A stretch of 64,000 nucleotides of DNA from assembly GCA_016926255.1 (NCBI GenBank), contig JAFGOY010000005.1:1-64000 (forward strand), in the 5' to 3' direction. The notes under the pieces were generated by a model, which saw nothing but the letters and a program-made list of their open reading frames with translations, had not been told where the DNA came from and ran no database searches. The stretch's first letter is position 1. Each line of letters opens with the position of its first letter. The position numbers and the translations under genes are program-made. The DNA comes from Anaerolineae bacterium (GTDB lineage: Bacteria; Chloroflexota; Anaerolineae; Aggregatilineales; UBA3940). Positions 216 through 39,914 of the stretch are shown here, in pieces.

Positions 216-584
216 ATGAAGAAAATACTCATCGTTGACGATCAGTTGGAAGTACGTGAACTGGTAAGCGTAACGCTAGAAATCGGCCCATACACCATTT
301 TAACCGCCGAAAACGGTAACGAGGCACTTGAAATCGCGCGAGTCGAGATGCCCGATCTCATTCTCCTTGATGTCATGATGCCCAACGGTCCAGATGGGTT
401 AGAAGTCTGTTCCGCGCTCAAGAATGATCCAGCCACCCAGGGCCTCTATGTCATCATGCTCACGTCAAAAGGCCAGGAGTGGGACGTCAAAGCCGGGTAT
501 GACTCCGGAGCTGATGACTATTTCATCAAGCCGTTCAGCCCGCTCGATTTGATGAACAAAGTAGAAGAAGTATTGGAGGGCTGA
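216..584 (+). CDS. Stand-alone response regulator receiver (CheY-like)
   Basis: A 122-residue single receiver domain that should accept a phosphoryl group from a histidine kinase. Visible family residues are the acidic pair in IVDD near residue 8, the phospho-acceptor Asp in LLDVMMP near residue 52, Thr in MLTSK and Lys in IKPFSP. The loop after the acceptor (MPNGPDG) is one residue longer than the usual MPGMDG, a trait shared with the receiver at 7111, so the two are likely paralogues. There is no output domain, which fits a shuttle in a phosphorelay or a protein-protein effector. An AGCAGGAAGAAG ribosome site precedes the start. It is followed at 40 bases by the kinase gene at 625, its likely partner. 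Confidence 0.9.
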   Translation: MKKILIVDDQLEVRELVSVTLEIGPYTILTAENGNEALEIARVEMPDLILLDVMMPNGPDGLEVCSALKNDPATQGLYVIMLTSKGQEWDVKAGYDSGADDYFIKPFSPLDLMNKVEEVLEG

Positions 585-624
585 CAGCCATCTCTCCAAT
601 CGGGAGGCTCTCCAATAACAATGT

Positions 625-2361
625 ATGTCTGATACTCAGCCATTATCACCGGATGCTCCTTCAGAAGCCGAACAAGCCTATCAACAGGCCCTGGAATACG
701 GCAAGGACCTGGCCCGCGTTTATGTTGCCGAGCAAACCCGGAGAAAAGAAGTCGAAGCTGCCAACCAGCTCCTGAGCGCTGTCTTTACCAGCACCCCAGA
801 CGGGCTGGCCGTCCTCAACGAAGCCCTGGTCGTCCGGCAGGCAAACCCGACTTTTGGAGAATTCTTCAAAACAACCCCCGAACAATTAATCGGCGAGTCT
901 TTGCATTCCCTGCCCATAGCTGACGGACTGCTGCCGCTGCTGGAACGCCTGCGATCCGCACCCAGCGAACACGCCGAAGCCGAACTCATCCTCGGCCAAC
1001 CTGAGTGGCGGTCACTGCTGGCAACTGCGGCGCGATTAGAGACTCCGCATTTGCAGGGCTGGGTGATCGTTCTCCACGACCAAACGGAGCGAAAACGGGC
1101 ACAGGAAGCACTGCGGCGCGCCCATGACGAACTGGAAATTCGCGTCGAGGAGCGGACCGCGGAACTGGTCATGGCGAATGAGCGGCTCAAACGCGAGGTG
1201 GAAGAACGCAAACAGGCAGAAGCCGCCGAACGCGAACAGCGCACGCTGGCCGAAGCCCTGCGCGATACCGCCGCCGCTGTCAGCAGCACGCTCGACCTCA
1301 ACGAAGTCTCGAAGCGAATCCTGGCGAACGTCGGGCAGGTGATGCCGCACGATTCGGCCAGCATCATGTACATCGACGAAGAGGGAATGGCGCAGGTTGT
1401 CCACCTGCAAGGCAGAACGCCGCCGGAAAACGCAGAGGTATTAAAAAAACTCAGGTTCCCGGTAGACGAAACACCAAACCTGCGCCGGGTGATCGATAGC
1501 AGGGAGCCTTATATCATCGCCGATACCCGCGAGTATGACGGCTGGGTCAGCCACCCGGCCCACGACTGGATACGGTCAAATATCAGCATCCCCCTCATCT
1601 CCGAAGATGTCATCATCGGGTTTCTGAACCTGGACAGCACCGAACCGAATTTCTTCGACCAGGTGCAGGCGGAGCGTCTGCGAACTTTTGCCGACCAGGC
1701 CGCCATTGCCATCCGAAACGCACGGCTTTACGAGCAGGCTCAGGAACTGGCTGTCATCGAAGAGCGGCAGCGATTGGCCCGCGACCTGCACGACGCCGTC
1801 AGCCAGACCTTATGGTCGGCCAGCCTGCTGACAGACACCCTTCCTGCTCTATATGAGGCCAACCCGAACGAAGGGCAGCACACACTCGGCGAACTCCAGG
1901 GACTGATCCGGGGGGCGCTGGCCGAGATGCGGACACTGCTGCTGGAACTGCGTCCCGAAACACTGATCGAGAAAGACCTGGAAAGCCTGATCCGCCAGTT
2001 GATTAACTCCCTGGTAGGCAGAACCGGGATCGAGGCGGTGCTGGAATCTACAGGGAAAACCAACCTCCCGCCCAGAGTGCATGAGGCGATCTATCGCATC
2101 ACGCAGGAATCGATCAATAATATTATGAAGCACGCCGAGGCAACCTGGCTCCGGATAGAGATGATCAGCGAATCAGACCGGTTTTCCATATCGATCCAGG
2201 ACAACGGGCATGGCTACGATCCGGGCGACACCCTTCCCGGACACCTTGGAATCGGGATCATGAAGGAACGAGCGGCAGCCGTCAATGCCCAATTAAGCAT
2301 CGACAGCGCAGTCGGCACAGGGACAACGGTTCGCGTTGTATGGCCGAACCCAGAAATATAA
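625..2361 (+). CDS. PAS-GAF sensor histidine kinase, NarL/DegS-type (HisKA_3)
   Basis: A 578-residue cytosolic kinase with no membrane segment. Order of parts: a helical N-terminus with YGKDLARVYVAEQTRRKE (residues 25-42), a PAS domain at about 50-155, a long charged coiled coil at 155-210, a GAF domain at about 215-370, HisKA_3 with the phosphorylated His389 in the ARDLHDAVSQTL motif, and a C-terminal ATPase domain with the N-box around QESINNIMKH and the glycine loops DNGHGYD and GHLGIGIMKERA. It probably senses an internal signal and phosphorylates the LuxR-type regulator 39 bases downstream, the standard pairing for this kinase class. The N-terminal helical module plus PAS is shared with the kinase at 5243. 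The signal cannot be read from the sequence. Confidence 0.92.
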   Translation: MSDTQPLSPDAPSEAEQAYQQALEYGKDLARVYVAEQTRRKEVEAANQLLSAVFTSTPDGLAVLNEALVVRQANPTFGEFFKTTPEQLIGESLHSLPIADGLLPLLERLRSAPSEHAEAELILGQPEWRSLLATAARLETPHLQGWVIVLHDQTERKRAQEALRRAHDELEIRVEERTAELVMANERLKREVEERKQAEAAEREQRTLAEALRDTAAAVSSTLDLNEVSKRILANVGQVMPHDSASIMYIDEEGMAQVVHLQGRTPPENAEVLKKLRFPVDETPNLRRVIDSREPYIIADTREYDGWVSHPAHDWIRSNISIPLISEDVIIGFLNLDSTEPNFFDQVQAERLRTFADQAAIAIRNARLYEQAQELAVIEERQRLARDLHDAVSQTLWSASLLTDTLPALYEANPNEGQHTLGELQGLIRGALAEMRTLLLELRPETLIEKDLESLIRQLINSLVGRTGIEAVLESTGKTNLPPRVHEAIYRITQESINNIMKHAEATWLRIEMISESDRFSISIQDNGHGYDPGDTLPGHLGIGIMKERAAAVNAQLSIDSAVGTGTTVRVVWPNPEI

Positions 2362-2400
2362 GAGTGTCTGACGTTTTCGCGCAGCACCTGGGGGAAAATT

Positions 2401-3039
2401 ATGAGTCAAGAAGAAACCATTCGGGTAATGATCGTCGACGACCACGCGATGGTGCGCAAAGGGCTGGCGACTTTTCTCAATATCTCGCCGAACCTGGAAC
2501 TGGTCGCCGAGGCTTCCAGCGGCCCAACTGCTCTAAGGCTGTGCGAGGAGTATCAGCCCGACGTGGTGCTGATGGATATGATCATGCCCGGTATGGACGG
2601 AATCGAAACCACGCGGGCGATCCGGAAGGCTTTCCCGGCGATCAAGGTGATCATCCTGACGAGCTTCACCGAGAACGACCTCGTGCAAAAAGCGCTGCAA
2701 GCAGGCGCGTTGAGCTACCTTCTCAAGGATGTAGGAGCCGAGCAGCTGGCCGAAGCAATCGAGGCAGCGATGGAAGACCGGCCCAGTCTGGCACCGGAAG
2801 CAATGCAGGCATTGATCGGGGCGATGACCCAGCCGCCTGCTCCAGGTTTCGACCTGACCCCACGTGAGCGTGAAGTGCTGGCATTGATGGCCGAAGGGCT
2901 TCAGAACCCGGAGATCGCTGAGCGGCTGTTCGTCAGCCGTTCGACGGTCAAAACCCATGTCAGCAGTATTCTCTCCAAGCTGGACGTTTCCAGCCGGGTG
3001 GAAGCGGTGACCGTCGCCCTGGAAAACAAACTCGTCTAG
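2401..3039 (+). CDS. NarL/FixJ-family response regulator
   Basis: A 212-residue DNA-binding regulator. The receiver domain fills residues 1-120 (VDDH acidic pair, acceptor Asp in [12 protein letters not shown], Thr in ILTSF, Lys in LLKD). The C-terminal LuxR-type helix-turn-helix covers about 145-210, with the typical [15 protein letters not shown] start and the recognition helix in [16 protein letters not shown]. It follows the HisKA_3 kinase directly, so the two form a normal two-component pair. The start has a GGGGGAAAATT ribosome site. Its targets are unknown. Confidence 0.95.
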
Positions 3040-4316: not shown

Positions 4317-4748
4317 ATGCGCGGCAAAATGCATCACAGAACATTTACAACCTTCTCTCTCAAATCGTTGAAGGAAATCGCCGTCGTGCTGGCAAGCGCG
4401 GCAATCCTGGCAAACATCATCATCTTCGCAGCAGGCAGCCATTTCTCCCTGGTCAACAAAGCCGAAGCATCCTCCACCACTTTCGACAGCGCCATCTCAC
4501 CCACCGCCTTCACCATTTCAGATGTCGAGTATCAGGTTTCCCCCTCCGGCCCAGATAACTTAAAGAGCGTTTCTTTTACAGCTTCGTCACCCAATGGTGC
4601 AGCACCTGCCGGGGTCAAGATCAGGTTGGTTCAGGGCAGCAGCACATGGTTCACCTGCTCCCCGATCAGCGGCGGCGGGTGGTACTGCCCCATATCGGGG
4701 TTATCCATCGAGGATACCGACGTTTTCGAGACCTCGGTTACACAGTAA
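4317..4748 (+). CDS. Small exported or membrane-anchored protein
   Basis: A 143-residue protein of unknown function. A basic N-terminus is followed by one hydrophobic segment (about residues 20-42) and then roughly 95 residues rich in Ser, Thr, Gly and Pro with a beta-sheet look, containing two cysteines (FTCSP and WYCPI) that could form a disulfide outside the cell. The hydrophobic segment could be an uncleaved anchor or a signal peptide. A GAAGGGGAAACC ribosome site precedes the ATG. It sits just upstream of a receiver gene, in the middle of a signalling cluster, but nothing links it functionally. Confidence 0.65.
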   Translation: MRGKMHHRTFTTFSLKSLKEIAVVLASAAILANIIIFAAGSHFSLVNKAEASSTTFDSAISPTAFTISDVEYQVSPSGPDNLKSVSFTASSPNGAAPAGVKIRLVQGSSTWFTCSPISGGGWYCPISGLSIEDTDVFETSVTQ

Positions 4749-4803: not shown

Positions 4804-5190
4804 ATGACCGCAACAATAGTACGAACAACCAGAGTTCTCATCGTCGACGACCACACCAGGGTACGGTTGGCTCTATCGGCCTTTATAAAAGCAGCAGCCA
4901 ACCTCGAACTGGCGGGAGAAGCGACGAATGGGGTCGAAGCACTTGAAGCCTGCGCCAAATACCAGCCCGACGTGGTGCTGATGGACCTGGTCATGCCCCA
5001 GATGGACGGCATCACGGCGACCCGGCTGATCCGGCAGACTTTTCCGGGGATCAAAGTGATCATCCTGACTGGCTTTGGCAAAGACGACATGGTCGATATG
5101 GCAATGAAATCAGGGGCAAGCTGCTACCTGAACAAAGACATCCCGGCATCAGACCTGGCAAATACGATCAGCGCCACGCGCTGCCAGTAA
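4804..5190 (+). CDS. NarL-type receiver lacking its DNA-binding domain
   Basis: A 128-residue receiver domain, closely similar to the receiver half of the LuxR-type regulator at 2401 (shared [14 protein letters not shown]-like loop, IKVIIL and the C-terminal Lys in LNKD). The frame stays open upstream, but the start chosen here has AAGGACAATACC directly before the ATG; an ATG at 4786 is possible. The protein stops where the helix-turn-helix would begin, and the 52 bases to the next gene cannot encode one in any frame. It is therefore a genuine lone receiver, perhaps derived by loss of the output domain, and may act as a phosphate sink or adaptor for the kinase at 5243. Confidence 0.85.
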   Translation: MTATIVRTTRVLIVDDHTRVRLALSAFIKAAANLELAGEATNGVEALEACAKYQPDVVLMDLVMPQMDGITATRLIRQTFPGIKVIILTGFGKDDMVDMAMKSGASCYLNKDIPASDLANTISATRCQ

Positions 5191-5242: not shown

Positions 5243-7090
5243 ATGGCTGATCGAATGGACCGATCACTGGATAGCCCGGGAGGCGATCTCAATCCGACAC
5301 AGCTCGCCTACCGGCAGGCGATGAAATATGGCACCGACCTGCGGCGCGTTTACCTCGCGGAGAAAAGCCGCCGCCAGGAGCTGGAATTAAGCAACCAACT
5401 TTTCAACGCGATATTCTCCAGCACACCGACCGCGCTGGTGGTGCTGGACTCGACGCTTACCATCCGGCAGGCCAACCCGATCTTTACCACACTGCTGGAA
5501 CTGGATACAGACAGCATCCGGGGCAAACCGCTGCGCGAGGTCATCGACGAAGAAACCCTGTTCGCAGCCCTCCATGACATCGACACAAGCCGCCACGCCC
5601 CAACCCAGATCGAATTACAACTGGAGCAGCCGGTCAAACGCTCGCTGCTGGTCGATATCGCCCGGTTGAGGGCCGGGAATTTCTCCGGCTGGATCATCGT
5701 TTTTCACGACCAGACCGAGCGGCGACGCCTCGACTATCAAAAATCGGAGTTCATCAATATTGCTGCACACGAACTGCGTACCCCACTGACGTCGATTATC
5801 GGGCTGAGTGAACTGCTCAAGGAGGGCTACAGCGACGGACTCGCAGACGATCAGCGGCAGTGCGTTTCCGGCATTCTCGAAGGAGGAAAACGACTGGCAA
5901 ACATCGTCGATCAACTGGTGGCATTCACTCAGCTAACCGAAGGCAAAGTCGCGCTGACCGATTCGTCAGAATATAACCTGCTCGACGTGATCCGGGACGA
6001 AATAGTTGATCTCCAGACTTACGCTGAAACGAAAGAGATCACGCTGAAACTAGAGACATCGCCGCTGGAGATCAAGACCAACATCAACCCGGTACTGCTG
6101 CGGACGACGATCCACCAACTGCTGCTCAACGGCATCAACTTCAACGAACCGACCGGCAGTGTTGCTATACGGGTCGAACGGACAGACGAACATGTGACTA
6201 TCCAGGTGATCGATGACGGGCTCGGTATCCCTCGGAGCGAACTCGAATCGATTTTCCAGCCGTTCTTCCAGGTTGAAGATCACAATATCCGGCGGGTGGG
6301 CGGCCTGGGATTAGGATTGTCGATTGTCAAGCGGGTGGTCGCCGAGTTAGGCGGCGTCCTGTCTGTCGACAGCATTTACAGGCAGGGGTCAACCTTTACG
6401 ATCACCGTCCCCCTCAAACGGACTAACTTTGACGGCGAACTGGCGGTGCTGCAAGATCAGCTGCGCGCAAGCCATGAACAATCGCTGGCCTATGCCCGCG
6501 ATATCCAGGCGCTCTACCGCCAGCAGCATCTCCATATCGTCAACACCCTCTCAGCGATCACCGAGACACTCGAAGCCCGCGACCCCTTCGTGGCAGGCCA
6601 CACCGAGCGTGTCACCGAACTGTCGCTGAGACTGGGGCAGTTGCTGGGCTTGTCCAAATCAGAACTACGCACGCTGGAAACCGCCAGCCGCATTCACGAT
6701 ATCGGGAAGATCGGCGTCTCGGACGACGTATTGAACAACGTCGACGGCCTGCCCGATCACGAATACATGATCGTACAGCATATCGAAAAAGCACGTGAAA
6801 TCCTCGATCCGCTGACCTTCCTGGACGACGCGATCCCAATCGCACTTTCTCACCACGAACGCTACGACGGGCAGGGATACCCCGGCCTGCTGGTCGGCGA
6901 AGACATCCCCTTCGGGGCACGCATCCTGGCAGTAGCCAATGATTTCGACGTTATGACTTCACCACGACCGCAGCGAGAAGCTCTTTCGACATCCGAAGCA
7001 CTCGATGCCTTCAGTGTCGGTGCCGGAACCCACTGGGACCCGCAGGTCGTCGAGGCTTTGATTGCCTTGATGAGTACTTCTCCAAAGTAA
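5243..7090 (+). CDS. PAS histidine kinase fused to HD-GYP phosphodiesterase
   Basis: A 615-residue fusion. Parts in order: helical N-terminus (YGTDLRRVYLAEKSRRQE, residues 29-46), PAS about 50-160, HisKA with His176 in AAHELRTPL, ATPase domain to about 392 (DDGLGIP and GGLGLGLSIVKR), a helical linker with AYARDIQALYRQQ (416-428), then a complete HD-GYP domain at about 430-605 with HTERV, HD at 485-486 in RIHDIGKIG, HHERYDGQGYP (537-547) and GTHWDP. HD-GYP domains normally hydrolyse cyclic di-GMP, so phosphorelay and second-messenger turnover may be joined in one chain. All key residues look intact. It lies between two lone receivers (4804, 7111) that are likely partners. Confidence 0.92.
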   Translation: MADRMDRSLDSPGGDLNPTQLAYRQAMKYGTDLRRVYLAEKSRRQELELSNQLFNAIFSSTPTALVVLDSTLTIRQANPIFTTLLELDTDSIRGKPLREVIDEETLFAALHDIDTSRHAPTQIELQLEQPVKRSLLVDIARLRAGNFSGWIIVFHDQTERRRLDYQKSEFINIAAHELRTPLTSIIGLSELLKEGYSDGLADDQRQCVSGILEGGKRLANIVDQLVAFTQLTEGKVALTDSSEYNLLDVIRDEIVDLQTYAETKEITLKLETSPLEIKTNINPVLLRTTIHQLLLNGINFNEPTGSVAIRVERTDEHVTIQVIDDGLGIPRSELESIFQPFFQVEDHNIRRVGGLGLGLSIVKRVVAELGGVLSVDSIYRQGSTFTITVPLKRTNFDGELAVLQDQLRASHEQSLAYARDIQALYRQQHLHIVNTLSAITETLEARDPFVAGHTERVTELSLRLGQLLGLSKSELRTLETASRIHDIGKIGVSDDVLNNVDGLPDHEYMIVQHIEKAREILDPLTFLDDAIPIALSHHERYDGQGYPGLLVGEDIPFGARILAVANDFDVMTSPRPQREALSTSEALDAFSVGAGTHWDPQVVEALIALMSTSPK

Positions 7091-7110: not shown

Positions 7111-7521
7111 ATGTTGACAATATCCGAAGTGCAAAAGGCAGGAGCGAATAAAATAAAAACAATCCTGGCAGCCGACGATAGGAAGGAAATCCTTGAACTG
7201 GTTTCGGTAACACTTGAGGGCAGCCCCTACGAGGTGATGCTGGTTACCAACGGCACGCAGGCTTTGCAGGCCGCGCAGAAATATCACCCGGACCTGATCC
7301 TGCTTGATATCGTCATGCCGGGCGGTATCGACGGGTTGGAAGTCTGCCGCAGGCTCAAAGGCGATCCGGAAACAAGCGACATTAACATCCTGATCATGAC
7401 CTCGAAGTATTCCGACGAGATCGCGCTGGAGATTTACGAATCACAGGCCAATGGGCTGCTTCCGAAGCCATTCAGCCCCAGAGGGCTGCTGATTACCGTC
7501 GAACGCCTGCTGGAAAATTAA
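7111..7521 (+). CDS. Stand-alone response regulator receiver
   Basis: A 136-residue receiver with a short N-terminal extension. The acidic pair is kept in an unusual setting (LAADDRKE), the acceptor Asp is in LLDIVMPGG, followed by Thr in IMTSK and Lys in LPKPFSP. The acceptor loop MPGGIDG and the C-terminus resemble the receiver at 216, so these are likely paralogues bracketing the cluster. No output domain is present. A GGAAGGAGAAAGGA ribosome site and a 20-base gap after the kinase/HD-GYP gene suggest co-expression with it. Confidence 0.88.
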   Translation: MLTISEVQKAGANKIKTILAADDRKEILELVSVTLEGSPYEVMLVTNGTQALQAAQKYHPDLILLDIVMPGGIDGLEVCRRLKGDPETSDINILIMTSKYSDEIALEIYESQANGLLPKPFSPRGLLITVERLLEN

Positions 7522-36430: not shown

Positions 36431-36817
36431 TCAAGAAACGTCGTCTAGAGTCTGCTCCAGATCATGGACAAAAGTGCGCGAGTTAATGGGTTTAGGGAAA
36501 TAGGCCGCAAACCCGGCTTTCAGCGCTTCTTCCGCCACCGTAATCGAATGGAATGCCGTGATCGCCACTACCGGGATACGAGAAAGGAATGGGTCGTCCT
36601 GCATGGTCGCCAGCATATCCCAACCGTTCATTCCCGGCAGTCCCAGATCGACAACGGCCAGTGTAGGGCACTGCTCTTTGAGTTTGTCCAGCGCCTCTTC
36701 AGCTGTGAAGGCCGTGTCTACGGCGATGCTGTAATGCTCAAGAATAGGCACCAGAACCGCCTGAGCATCCTCTTCATCATCTACCAACAGTACATACCAA
36801 TTTGATAAATCCCGCAC
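36431..36817 (-). CDS. Stand-alone response regulator receiver
   Basis: A 128-residue receiver domain. A GTG start is chosen since AGGAGG sits 6 bases before it; an in-frame ATG further upstream would overlap the previous gene. Acidic pair in LVDDEED, acceptor Asp in AVVDLGLPGMNGW, Thr in ITAFH, Lys in YFPKPI. The spacing to the preceding receiver gene is 10 bases. It belongs to a kinase-receiver-receiver series and lies just upstream of the diterpene operon. Confidence 0.9.
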   Translation of the reverse strand: MRDLSNWYVLLVDDEEDAQAVLVPILEHYSIAVDTAFTAEEALDKLKEQCPTLAVVDLGLPGMNGWDMLATMQDDPFLSRIPVVAITAFHSITVAEEALKAGFAAYFPKPINSRTFVHDLEQTLDDVS

Positions 36818-36827
36818 AATACACCTC

Positions 36828-37220
36828 CTATGAAACACGTTCTAAACATTCAACCAGATCGTCTAGAAGCGTAAAGATAGCCAACGGTTTACTCATATAT
36901 CCCGCAAAACCCGCTCCGATGATCCGTTCCCGGTCGCCCAGCATGGCGTGAGCCGTCAGCGCGACTACCGGCACACTTGCCCCGTTCTTGCTTGCCTTGA
37001 TCTGCTTCAACATTTCCCAGCCATCCATCTCAGGCATGGAAATATCGCTCAAGACAAGTGTCGGATGCACACGTGAGAAGATATTCATGGCCTCTTTACC
37101 ATCACCCGCCTGGTAAACGGTCGCCCCGGCTGCACCGAGAACCATTTCGATTATCTCGATGCTGTCCGGCTCGTCATCGACAACCAGAACGCGCCATTCC
37201 GATAAATCTGGGCGATTCAT
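36828..37220 (-). CDS. Stand-alone response regulator receiver
   Basis: A 130-residue receiver domain, acceptor Asp in LVLSDISMPEMDGW, acidic pair in VVDDEPDS, Thr in ALTAHAM and Lys in YMSKPLA. The start is the ATG at 37220, right after the kinase stop at 37227; a TTG 3 bases upstream is possible. The near overlap with the kinase suggests translational coupling and a cognate pair. Confidence 0.9.
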   Translation of the reverse strand: MNRPDLSEWRVLVVDDEPDSIEIIEMVLGAAGATVYQAGDGKEAMNIFSRVHPTLVLSDISMPEMDGWEMLKQIKASKNGASVPVVALTAHAMLGDRERIIGAGFAGYMSKPLAIFTLLDDLVECLERVS

Positions 37221-37226
37221 CAAGTC

Positions 37227-38633
37227 CTATCCCTCTGGTTCGACGAACGGCAGTGTTACCGTAAACGTACTGCCTTCACCCGGCGCGCTGTCCACCCGGA
37301 CATTACCCTTCATCAACAGGGTCAGTTCTTTGACAATCGCCAGCCCCAGACCGGCCCCCATATACGCCCGCCTGGAAGTGCCGTCGACCTGCCGGAATTT
37401 ATCGAAAATGAACTCCTGGGCGTGCCGGGCGATACCTATGCCTGTATCGGCGACCTTGATACACCATTGATCCTCGTCGACCCGCTCCAGAGATACTTTG
37501 ATATGGCCCTCGTCGGTGAACTTCACCGCATTTCCGGCCAGGTTGATCATGATCCGTTCCAGCCGTTGAATATCCCCATACATCTTGGGAGGAAGGGCCG
37601 GGTCCGCTTCGGTGATGTAGGCAACATCTTTTTCAGCAGCCTGTGGTTCGATAACCCGTCTCACATTGTCCAGCAGGTCTTCCGGTTTGAATTCTGCCAC
37701 AATCAGGTCAACCCGGTTGGCCTCGATCCGGGAAATATCAAGCAGGTCGTCAATCAACGATAACAGCCGCTCGCTGTTGAAGTGGATTCGCTTGGTCGTA
37801 TGTCGAACTTTCTCGTCCATCGATCCCGCCAGCCCCATCAACATGACCTCAGCGAAACCGATGATGGCGTTAAGCGGCGTGCGCAGTTCGTGCGACATCG
37901 TCGCCAGGAACTCGCTTTTCAGCCGGTTTGCCTCCACCGCCTGCTTTACTGCCTGTTCCAGTTCACGCGACTGCCTCTCGATCTGCTGAATGTTCTGCTG
38001 GCGGATGCTGGCCGATACGATGATCAGGATCGACATGATGACGACGAAAATAAACGTGTTGGTTACCGCAGCGATGGTAATTTCCGGTGACAGCAGCGGC
38101 GGGATAAGCAGCACGATCAGGCTGTCAACAACAGCCAGGATCACCGTCCACATCAGCGGGAGCAGCAGGCTTGCCAGAAGCACGTCAAGGGCCAGATATC
38201 CCAGCATATCGGTTGCCGTTGCTGGGTCCTGAATCGCCGTGATGGTGGGAACGACAGCCACCGCAGCAACAGCAATGGCTGCACCGATGTTGTAGTGTTT
38301 AACCGAACGCGCCAGGAGATAAGCCACAATCAACAGCAGGTCAGCACCAATCAACACCAGGAAAATCGGGTTCTGCCATATTCCCGGGCTGAGCAGCAGT
38401 GACGGGTTGGCTAACGTCGAGACAACTACACCGACCAAACCCAGGGGGATGACCACCACCAGCAGCGATAGCAAGAAACGCATCTGGCGGCGCAGTTCTG
38501 CTCGCTTCACCTCTTCGGCAGGCTCGGTCAACTGACGCCAGATGCCCTGAATGGTTATTGGCTTTCTCGCTTTTACCTGACGCAAAGAAGCGCTTGTTTG
38601 CACACTCATTTCCTTAGTCCTTTTCTCATCCAT
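37227..38633 (-). CDS. Membrane-bound sensor histidine kinase
   Basis: A 468-residue kinase. A cytosolic N-terminus of about 45 residues is followed by about six hydrophobic segments (48-212) and a coiled coil (IQQIERQSRELEQAVKQAV). HisKA has the phospho-His in ATMSHELRTPLNAIIGFAE; the ATPase domain shows NLAGNAVKFTDEG, DTGIGIA and GAGLGLAIVKEL. The membrane part has short loops, so it may sense a membrane-borne or intracellular cue. It lies between receivers at 38640 and 36828 in one tight group, and that set probably forms a phosphorelay. Confidence 0.92.
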   Translation of the reverse strand: MDEKRTKEMSVQTSASLRQVKARKPITIQGIWRQLTEPAEEVKRAELRRQMRFLLSLLVVVIPLGLVGVVVSTLANPSLLLSPGIWQNPIFLVLIGADLLLIVAYLLARSVKHYNIGAAIAVAAVAVVPTITAIQDPATATDMLGYLALDVLLASLLLPLMWTVILAVVDSLIVLLIPPLLSPEITIAAVTNTFIFVVIMSILIIVSASIRQQNIQQIERQSRELEQAVKQAVEANRLKSEFLATMSHELRTPLNAIIGFAEVMLMGLAGSMDEKVRHTTKRIHFNSERLLSLIDDLLDISRIEANRVDLIVAEFKPEDLLDNVRRVIEPQAAEKDVAYITEADPALPPKMYGDIQRLERIMINLAGNAVKFTDEGHIKVSLERVDEDQWCIKVADTGIGIARHAQEFIFDKFRQVDGTSRRAYMGAGLGLAIVKELTLLMKGNVRVDSAPGEGSTFTVTLPFVEPEG

Positions 38634-38639
38634 CCCGTT

Positions 38640-39041
38640 CTACCCTAACAACGCGCGGTCGACCGGAACTTCATCCCCTAACACATCCAGAACCTTTCTT
38701 CGCAGGTCTGTCATCGACAGGCTGCCCTTCCGCAGCATCATCGAATAGGGGATTTTTAGCGCCTCAGCCTTTTCTCGCGTCACTTGTTGAGCAGTGAAAA
38801 TGATCACCGGCAGATCGGCTGTTCTTGGGTTTCCCCGCAGCTGTCTCATCACTGTTTCACCATCCAGGTAAGGCATGGTCAAATCGAGGATCACCAGCGA
38901 GGGAAGCTCTTTATTGATCAGGTTCAAGGCTTCAAATCCATCATAAGCCTGCCGAACAGGAACTCCCAACGTACCCAATATCAATCTTAGTATCTCTACA
39001 ACATCTCGGTTATCGTCAACAATAACAATATTTTTCTTCAT
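38640..39041 (-). CDS. Stand-alone response regulator receiver
   Basis: A 133-residue receiver domain with acidic pair VDDNRD, acceptor Asp in LVILDLTMPYLDGE, Thr in IIFTAQQ and a shifted C-terminal Lys/Arg in MMLRKGS where the usual KPF motif is lost. The changed end may alter phosphoryl transfer or signalling. GAGAAGGTTAATT precedes the ATG. It is 6 bases from the kinase start, and the first gene of the set. Confidence 0.88.
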   Translation of the reverse strand: MKKNIVIVDDNRDVVEILRLILGTLGVPVRQAYDGFEALNLINKELPSLVILDLTMPYLDGETVMRQLRGNPRTADLPVIIFTAQQVTREKAEALKIPYSMMLRKGSLSMTDLRRKVLDVLGDEVPVDRALLG

Positions 39042-39148
39042 AATTAACCTTCTCGCCCACGTCTATGCTATCAAGTCAACGTATAATACGTATATAAGCA
39101 CCCGGCAGGAAAGCATGGCGGCTGTTCATTTTGAACTCAACGCAGCGA

Positions 39149-39205
39149 AAAACCCCGGCAGCCTGTTATGCCATTGTAATTTTTACATTGCTGGATCGGG
39201 GTTTT
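39149..39205 (-). terminator. Terminator-like structure after the OmpR-type regulator
   Basis: Outer stem AAAACCCCG/CGGGGTTTT with a 39-base internal part that includes smaller complementary runs. On the - strand it ends in GGGGTTTTTCGC, 17 bases after the stop at 39222, so it probably ends the regulator transcript before the next operon. Confidence 0.65.
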
Positions 39206-39221
39206 AGAGGAGGGTAACCAC

Positions 39222-39914
39222 CTATACCTGGGACACGAACCGGTATCCAATACCACGTTCGGTCACGATATAGCGGGGATTAGAAGGCTCAGGTTCAATG
39301 ATTTTCCTGAGCCGACCAACGTAGATTCGAACATACTGCGAATAGTCGTCTTGAATCGATTCAGACCACAACGTTTCGATGATATCGAGGGACGATACAA
39401 CATGGTTGATATTCCGGACAAGCAGGGAAAGCAACTGGTAATCGAGGAATGACAGCGTAACCCGCTGCCCGTCGACGACAACCTCTTCACGATGAAGATC
39501 AATCGTCAGGCGCTCGTCGACGTAGGCCACACGCCCTTTTCGCCACGAAACATCGACGCTACGCCGCAGCAGCGCCGTCAGGCGCGCTTTCAGAATGGTG
39601 GGGCGAATCGGTTTGAGGAGATAGTCATCCGCTCCCAGCCCCAGCCCGCGTATGATATCTTCTTCCTCCTGTGCCACCGACGAAATCATCAGGATCGGGA
39701 CGTTGGTGAACGACCGTATCTGCTGGCAGACATCCCAACCATTCATTCCCGGCAGCTGGATATCCAGGAGCACCACATCCGGATCGTAGCGCTTTATTTG
39801 CGCGATCCCATCAGCCCCGGTGCCGGAGGTAAAGACCTCGTACCCCTCGGATTCAAGATAAATGGTGATATATTCCTGAGTGTCCGGATCATCCTCGATA
39901 ATGGCTACTCGCAA
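39222..39914 (-). CDS. OmpR/PhoB-family response regulator
   Basis: A 230-residue DNA-binding regulator. Receiver in 1-120 (IEDDPD, acceptor in VVLLDIQLPGMNGW, Lys in LLKPIRP), winged helix in 130-230 (LTIDLHREEVVVDGQ, LSFLDYQLLSLLVR, YVRIYVGRLRKII, ERGIGYRF). A TTG start with AAGGGAAACGTTCG upstream. A terminator separates it from the kinase set at 36.8-39.0 kb, yet it is the nearest DNA-binding output and could take phosphate from that kinase. Confidence 0.92.
   Translation of the reverse strand: MRVAIIEDDPDTQEYITIYLESEGYEVFTSGTGADGIAQIKRYDPDVVLLDIQLPGMNGWDVCQQIRSFTNVPILMISSVAQEEEDIIRGLGLGADDYLLKPIRPTILKARLTALLRRSVDVSWRKGRVAYVDERLTIDLHREEVVVDGQRVTLSFLDYQLLSLLVRNINHVVSSLDIIETLWSESIQDDYSQYVRIYVGRLRKIIEPEPSNPRYIVTERGIGYRFVSQV

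Follow-up and report, generated by a model that had tools for sequence, protein, structure and literature searches.

An HD-GYP domain is almost routinely annotated as a phosphodiesterase of cyclic di-GMP (c-di-GMP), and the locus described here raises the question of what such a domain does when it is joined to a histidine kinase in one chain. The DNA analyzed, referred to below as the window, is a stretch of 64,000 nucleotides, and the gene in question lies at 5243-7090 on its plus strand. A check of the open reading frames of the window indicated that this is a single, real frame; the ORF is complete and encodes 615 amino acids, arranged as signalling helix, PAS, HisKA, HATPase_c, helical linker and HD-GYP according to the translation and Pfam.

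The PAS domain (residues 58-162, positions 5414-5728, +; Pfam PAS_4, E 2.6e-8) follows a helical segment also found in the kinase encoded at 625-2361, and residues 18-164 are 42% identical to the front end of that kinase (C74:664-1104). The HisKA dimerisation and phosphoacceptor domain (residues 166-234, 5738-5944, +; E 1.5e-17) contains the H-box AAHELRTP with H176 (codon 5768-5770), which is invariant between the window protein and its one full-length relative. In the HATPase_c catalytic domain (residues 283-392, 6089-6418, +; E 2.5e-25), the N, G1 and G2 boxes are kept as N296, D324-G326-G328 in D324xGxG, and GLGLG from G354. With these motifs intact in both domains, the product is classified from its sequence as a class-I histidine kinase, and the intact HisKA-ATPase core claimed in the preliminary description stands. 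The HD-GYP domain (residues 441-602, 6563-7048, +; Pfam HD_5, E 5.7e-37) carries HHERYDGQGYP at 537-547, in agreement with the family signature HHExxDGxGYP. No receiver (Response_reg) was matched by Pfam in the 615-residue chain, which is therefore not a hybrid histidine kinase, and Pfam reported no transmembrane domain. The single ORF and its Pfam domains thus bear out the description of a direct kinase-HD-GYP fusion with no receiver in the chain.

The same description had called the fusion unusual, and the architecture searches agree. When eight candidates were scored per genome across the 154 genomes of the order, only two genomes had matches spanning both the kinase and the HD-GYP domain, the window's own (G000) and that of a relative, G013 (JAFGMM010000035.1, Anaerolineae bacterium isolate Zod_Metabat.474). 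In a sample of 400 genomes of the phylum (E 1e-48, scoring limited to three candidates per genome), the window's protein was alone in covering the two parts; each of the other listed matches is confined to one of them, either HD-GYP or kinase. HD-GYP domains similar to that of the window are common there (308 of the 400 genomes). The fetched loci gave 118 HD-GYP ORFs, a count that includes repeats of the window and G013 and some long ORFs cut by locus ends, and the kinase-bearing ones were the window's and G013's only. Scanning genome contigs with two short kinase peptides returned 50 loci, among which L078 was the single full-length one. This census covers Chloroflexota. Phrase searches, titles and the opening parts of abstracts yielded no paper on a direct histidine kinase-HD-GYP fusion; HD-GYP is described as occurring in very many architectures, and the fusion may be listed in the tables of that source (PMC8846402).

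The relatives of the kinase core have variable C-termini. In a tree of histidine kinase cores, the six closest form one clade with a support of 100: the window protein, its own-genome paralogue (L002), and kinases of G013, G007, G055 and G059. What follows the core differs among them, being HD-GYP in the window and G013, a second HisKA-HATPase in G055 and G059, GAF plus a second kinase in G007, and nothing in the paralogue. The window's linker (residues 393-440, 6419-6562, +), which contains YARDIQALYRQ, has the pattern YAxxxxxLYR in common with L012, L013 and L014; in L013 this shared linker runs into a GAF-kinase, and in both L012 and L014 into a second kinase, while it is largely missing from L078/L011. 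AlphaFold2 was run on the two fused proteins, and only the linker helix was used from the model, which places a helix at 398-446 with low confidence (pLDDT 55, pTM 0.34). The HD-GYP domain of the window thus occupies the slot where relatives place a second kinase, and the C-terminal slot of this core accepts three kinds of partner: HD-GYP, a GAF-kinase or another kinase.

The full-length proteins of the window and G013 are 40% identical, and their two halves tell different stories. In the kinase-core tree, the window pairs with G007 (support 96) and not with G013, whereas in the HD-GYP tree it pairs with G013 (support 96), a grouping flagged for long branches meeting. The idea that the fusion arose once was not upheld, as the two trees conflict. 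With a core that pairs with G007 and an HD-GYP domain that pairs with G013, replacement or separate gain has occurred at least once, and both one fusion followed by replacements and separate gains remain compatible with the trees. We also considered a contaminating contig and rejected it, as the nearest relative of the kinase core sits in a genome of the same family. Elsewhere in G000, the helix-PAS front end of the kinase family also occurs by itself, as a stand-alone protein (L032, 3690-4184, -, on contig C32) encoded beside the closest paralogue kinase and a photolyase-like gene.

Lone receivers had been noted on each side of the kinase gene, and both are confirmed on the same plus strand. 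A stand-alone NarL-type receiver without HTH lies 52 bases upstream (4804-5190, +; Response_reg, E 1.8e-27), and a second stand-alone receiver lies 20 bases downstream (7111-7521, +; E 3.1e-24). Response_reg is the sole Pfam match in the two, besides a sub-threshold PDE8A_N in the downstream one, and the alignment places the conserved Asp pair, phospho-Asp, Thr and Lys in both. The downstream receiver is 45-52% identical to that at 216-584 and to the receivers beside the kinases of G055, G059 and G013. The receiver at 216-584 is part of a sister module (216-3039, +; Pfam) that also comprises the PAS-GAF-HisKA_3 kinase at 625-2361 and a NarL-type regulator with HTH at 2401-3039. Within the core family, a lone receiver of one subfamily stands beside five of the six kinases, those of the window, G013, G055, G059 and G007, and not beside the paralogue. 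A complete kinase core accompanied so regularly by a lone receiver suggests ordinary phosphotransfer, which leaves the earlier proposal of signalling without phosphotransfer unsupported. Two other features of the window may be recorded here. A small ORF with a signal-peptide-like start (4317-4748, +) directly precedes the receiver-kinase-receiver group and has no match in Pfam or NCBIfam, and a second two-component cluster, read from the ORF translations, occupies 36431-39914 (-) with a membrane-type histidine kinase (37227-38633), three lone receivers and an OmpR-type regulator.

The catalytic potential of the HD-GYP domain can be read against PmGH, in which the metal ligands are E185, H189, H221, D222, H250, H276, H277 and D305, while D183, K225 and D308 are also needed and G284-P286, I294, R314 and K317 are reported to have little importance for catalysis (PMC4159591). 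Alignment gives Phe449, H453, H485, D486, H513, H537, H538 and Asn566 as the window equivalents of the eight ligands. For the dinuclear set H...HD...H...HH...D, six of seven ligands are canonical, and the set is left incomplete by Asn566 (codon 6938-6940, +), which replaces the last metal-ligand Asp in the motif AVAND. The claim that all metal and GYP residues are present therefore holds for GYP and for six of the seven dinuclear ligands, and fails at the last Asp. D183, K225 and D308 are all kept, as D447, K489 and D569; GYP (545-547) and I294 (I555) are kept in an alignment to PmGH and about 100 HD-GYP domains; and the R314 and K317 positions are kept as R575 and R578 in the window and lost in the G013 relative. 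Phe449 in place of E185 puts the domain in the 'Y/F' class, for which the PmGH authors expect two metals, not three (PMC4159591).

Among the domains compared, substitution of the last Asp is confined to this order. We aligned 101 distinct HD-GYP domains, including the window's own, which were picked as best matches to it and not at random. Asp occupies the D305 position in 94 of the 100 others. Asn replaces it in five (L011 of G013 and L022-L025 of G047, G055 and G059) and Gly in the remaining one (L020 of G039). The six without Asp all come from the window's own order, and every domain from outside it keeps Asp. An absent Asp as proof of inactivity was ruled out, since PmGH D305A is reported to retain weak, detectable activity (PMC4159591), and a V. 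cholerae survey states that an Asp-to-Asn change in VCA0681, which is active, may preserve activity (PMC4212101). Asn566 would thus lower, without excluding, phosphodiesterase activity of the window domain.

Twelve catalytic and metal positions are identical in the HD-GYP domains of the window and G013 despite a domain identity of about 41%. Under free drift, the chance of this is about 0.41^12 = 2e-5, a rough figure that ignores shared ancestry, and the retention of all other catalytic residues in both fused proteins suggests that selection has maintained a functional metal site. With the metal site kept in this way, the domain is predicted still to bind metal and probably a phosphorylated ligand.

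The assembly of G000 has 4.61 Mb in 82 contigs and a completeness of 96%, which leaves room for a cyclase outside it. The HD_5 model has a single match there, this gene. Searches for EAL and PilZ gave zero matches in the seven genomes tested, G000 and G013 included, and the positive controls matched. For GGDEF, G000 gave two matches that are weak and partial (40 and 24 bits); both fall in receiver proteins, whose motifs have degenerated to GGDNF and QDDHF. No canonical GGDEF was found in this genome, where the DNA pattern GG[DE]EF matched six times and never inside a GGDEF domain. One survey counts only GGDEF, GGEEF, SGDEF and AGDEF as active cyclase motifs and treats c-di-GMP signalling as impossible without an active cyclase (PMC9239204). 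With no other HD-GYP, no EAL or PilZ, and only degenerate GGDEF, control of c-di-GMP breakdown is unlikely here, and the suggestion that the kinase state is coupled to such breakdown, by a domain in which one metal Asp is changed, is not supported.

Loss of c-di-GMP is not order-wide, as strong GGDEF domains occur in some other genomes of the order, such as G009, G021, G046 and G053. A motif filter recovered six of 20 GGDEF-like stretches of relatives, all of them GGDNF or GNDNF. Receivers with a conserved degenerate GGDEF-like domain (GGDNF/GNDNF) recur across the order, in L030 (425-1381, G000:C32), L188, L190, L199-L201 and L203. G000 and G013 each have one DAC (c-di-AMP cyclase) domain, and c-di-AMP is the single cyclic dinucleotide with an identified cyclase domain in these two genomes.

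We favor, with moderate confidence and from sequence, a soluble class-I kinase that would pass phosphate to lone receivers, in which the divergent HD-GYP domain would serve as a regulatory or ligand-sensing input. The kinase core would autophosphorylate on H176, as its intact motifs suggest, and the phosphate would move to the flanking receivers, as the gene order and recurrent pairing suggest. A nucleotide bound at the metal site, most of which is kept, would alter how the dimer stalk packs, and this would in turn affect the kinase through the helical linker. We infer the dimer coupling, the direction of signalling and the ligand.

The strongest rival keeps the domain catalytic and makes it a kinase-controlled phosphohydrolase that acts on something other than c-di-GMP; candidates include c-di-AMP, 3'3'-cGAMP and linear dinucleotides. 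The largely kept metal site would serve such an enzyme, the DAC domains of G000 and G013 would supply one candidate substrate, and the solved chain closest in sequence to the window's HD-GYP domain is V-cGAP3, a 3'3'-cGAMP phosphodiesterase (5z7c). However, sequence closeness does not give specificity and the HD-type enzymes known to act on c-di-AMP (PgpH) are not HD-GYP proteins, both of which make this rival doubtful. Most described HD-GYP enzymes cut c-di-GMP according to a review, which also counts against it (PMC8177086).

If c-di-GMP were the substrate, the domain would be an active phosphodiesterase output that follows phosphorylation or conformation of the kinase without phosphotransfer. 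Six of seven dinuclear ligands, the counterparts of D183, K225 and D308, GYP and the base-binding Arg positions all agree with this, as does the weak activity of PmGH D305A (PMC4159591). We nevertheless consider it improbable, and less so the foregoing, as D305 is Asn, the R314 and K317 positions are lost in the G013 relative, the nearby lone receivers point to phosphotransfer, and the genome has neither EAL nor PilZ, another HD-GYP or a canonical GGDEF. A role as the cell's c-di-GMP phosphodiesterase is unlikely in a genome with no visible route to c-di-GMP synthesis. Least probable of all is an inert leftover that only aids dimerisation or is decaying; the HD-GYP domain is swapped or missing in sister kinases, its last Asp is changed and it is the sole one of its genome, but the twelve positions identical in two domains as divergent as these would be hard to explain by drift. 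The input role remains our preferred reading, and for an altered HD-GYP domain wired to a histidine kinase where no c-di-GMP synthesis is recognisable, the annotation as phosphodiesterase is probably wrong. The window protein is thus a tractable case for seeking another HD-GYP ligand.

Other HD-GYP proteins of the order have comparable features. HD_5 matches were found in six of 61 relatives, and all six other HD-GYP domains found there are without the last metal Asp. Four of these proteins (L022 and L025 of G059, L023 of G047 and L024 of G055) have a tandem HD-[HD-GYP] followed by a C-terminal LuxR HTH (GerE), with GYH replacing GYP; they are candidate nucleotide-sensing transcription factors, and the closest PDB match of L022, the one of the four that was searched, is again V-cGAP3. 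Counting the kinase fusions, six of seven HD-GYP proteins carry either a kinase or a DNA-binding domain in the same chain, and the seventh, L020, lies at a contig start. We tentatively suggest that, in an order that largely lost c-di-GMP signalling, HD-GYP domains could have found a second use as inputs, for phosphotransfer when attached to a histidine kinase (G000, G013) and for transcription when attached to LuxR DNA-binding domains (G047, G055, G059), always with the last metal Asp replaced. These recycled modules may read another nucleotide, and the role of HD-GYP without c-di-GMP becomes testable in a small set of proteins.

Pathways of the RpfC/RpfG type also link a histidine kinase input to an HD-GYP domain, but there the kinase and the HD-GYP protein are separate and phosphotransfer goes to a receiver on RpfG, whereas the window has both in one chain. 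PmGH of Persephonella marina shares with the window protein the HD-GYP fold, the HD and GYP motifs and most metal ligands; it is a GAF-HD-GYP phosphodiesterase with E185 and D305, where the window has Phe449, Asn566 and a complete kinase in front (PMC4159591). Bd1817 of Bdellovibrio likewise has Asn for the last metal Asp and, as reviewed, is inactive on c-di-GMP with two irons still held, but it also lacks the Tyr of GYP, which the window keeps (PMC8177086).

SgmT of Myxococcus xanthus provides the precedent for a degenerate c-di-GMP enzyme domain at the C-terminus of a kinase; like the window protein, this histidine kinase is soluble, has its sensor at the N-terminus and reaches an orphan-type partner by phosphotransfer, the latter being predicted for the window (PMC3509222). 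SgmT differs in having GAF, an internal receiver and GGDEF, whereas the window has PAS, no in-chain receiver and an HD-GYP domain with a nearly complete metal site, and c-di-GMP is reported to have had no effect on SgmT kinase activity in vitro, the receptor domain only placing the protein (PMC3509222). For HD-GYP as a receptor, the precedent is DvhD of Desulfovibrio vulgaris, whose HD-GYP domain binds and does not cut c-di-GMP and acts through stalk movement, behind PAS and a dimer stalk helix as we propose for the window (PMC13090378). Both proteins align with AVAN.F in place of VAD.FD. DvhD is, however, a membrane receptor that controls a periplasmic protease and has no kinase, and it lost far more of the metal site (HD to SQ, HH to M-N), whereas the window keeps HD and HH (PMC13090378).
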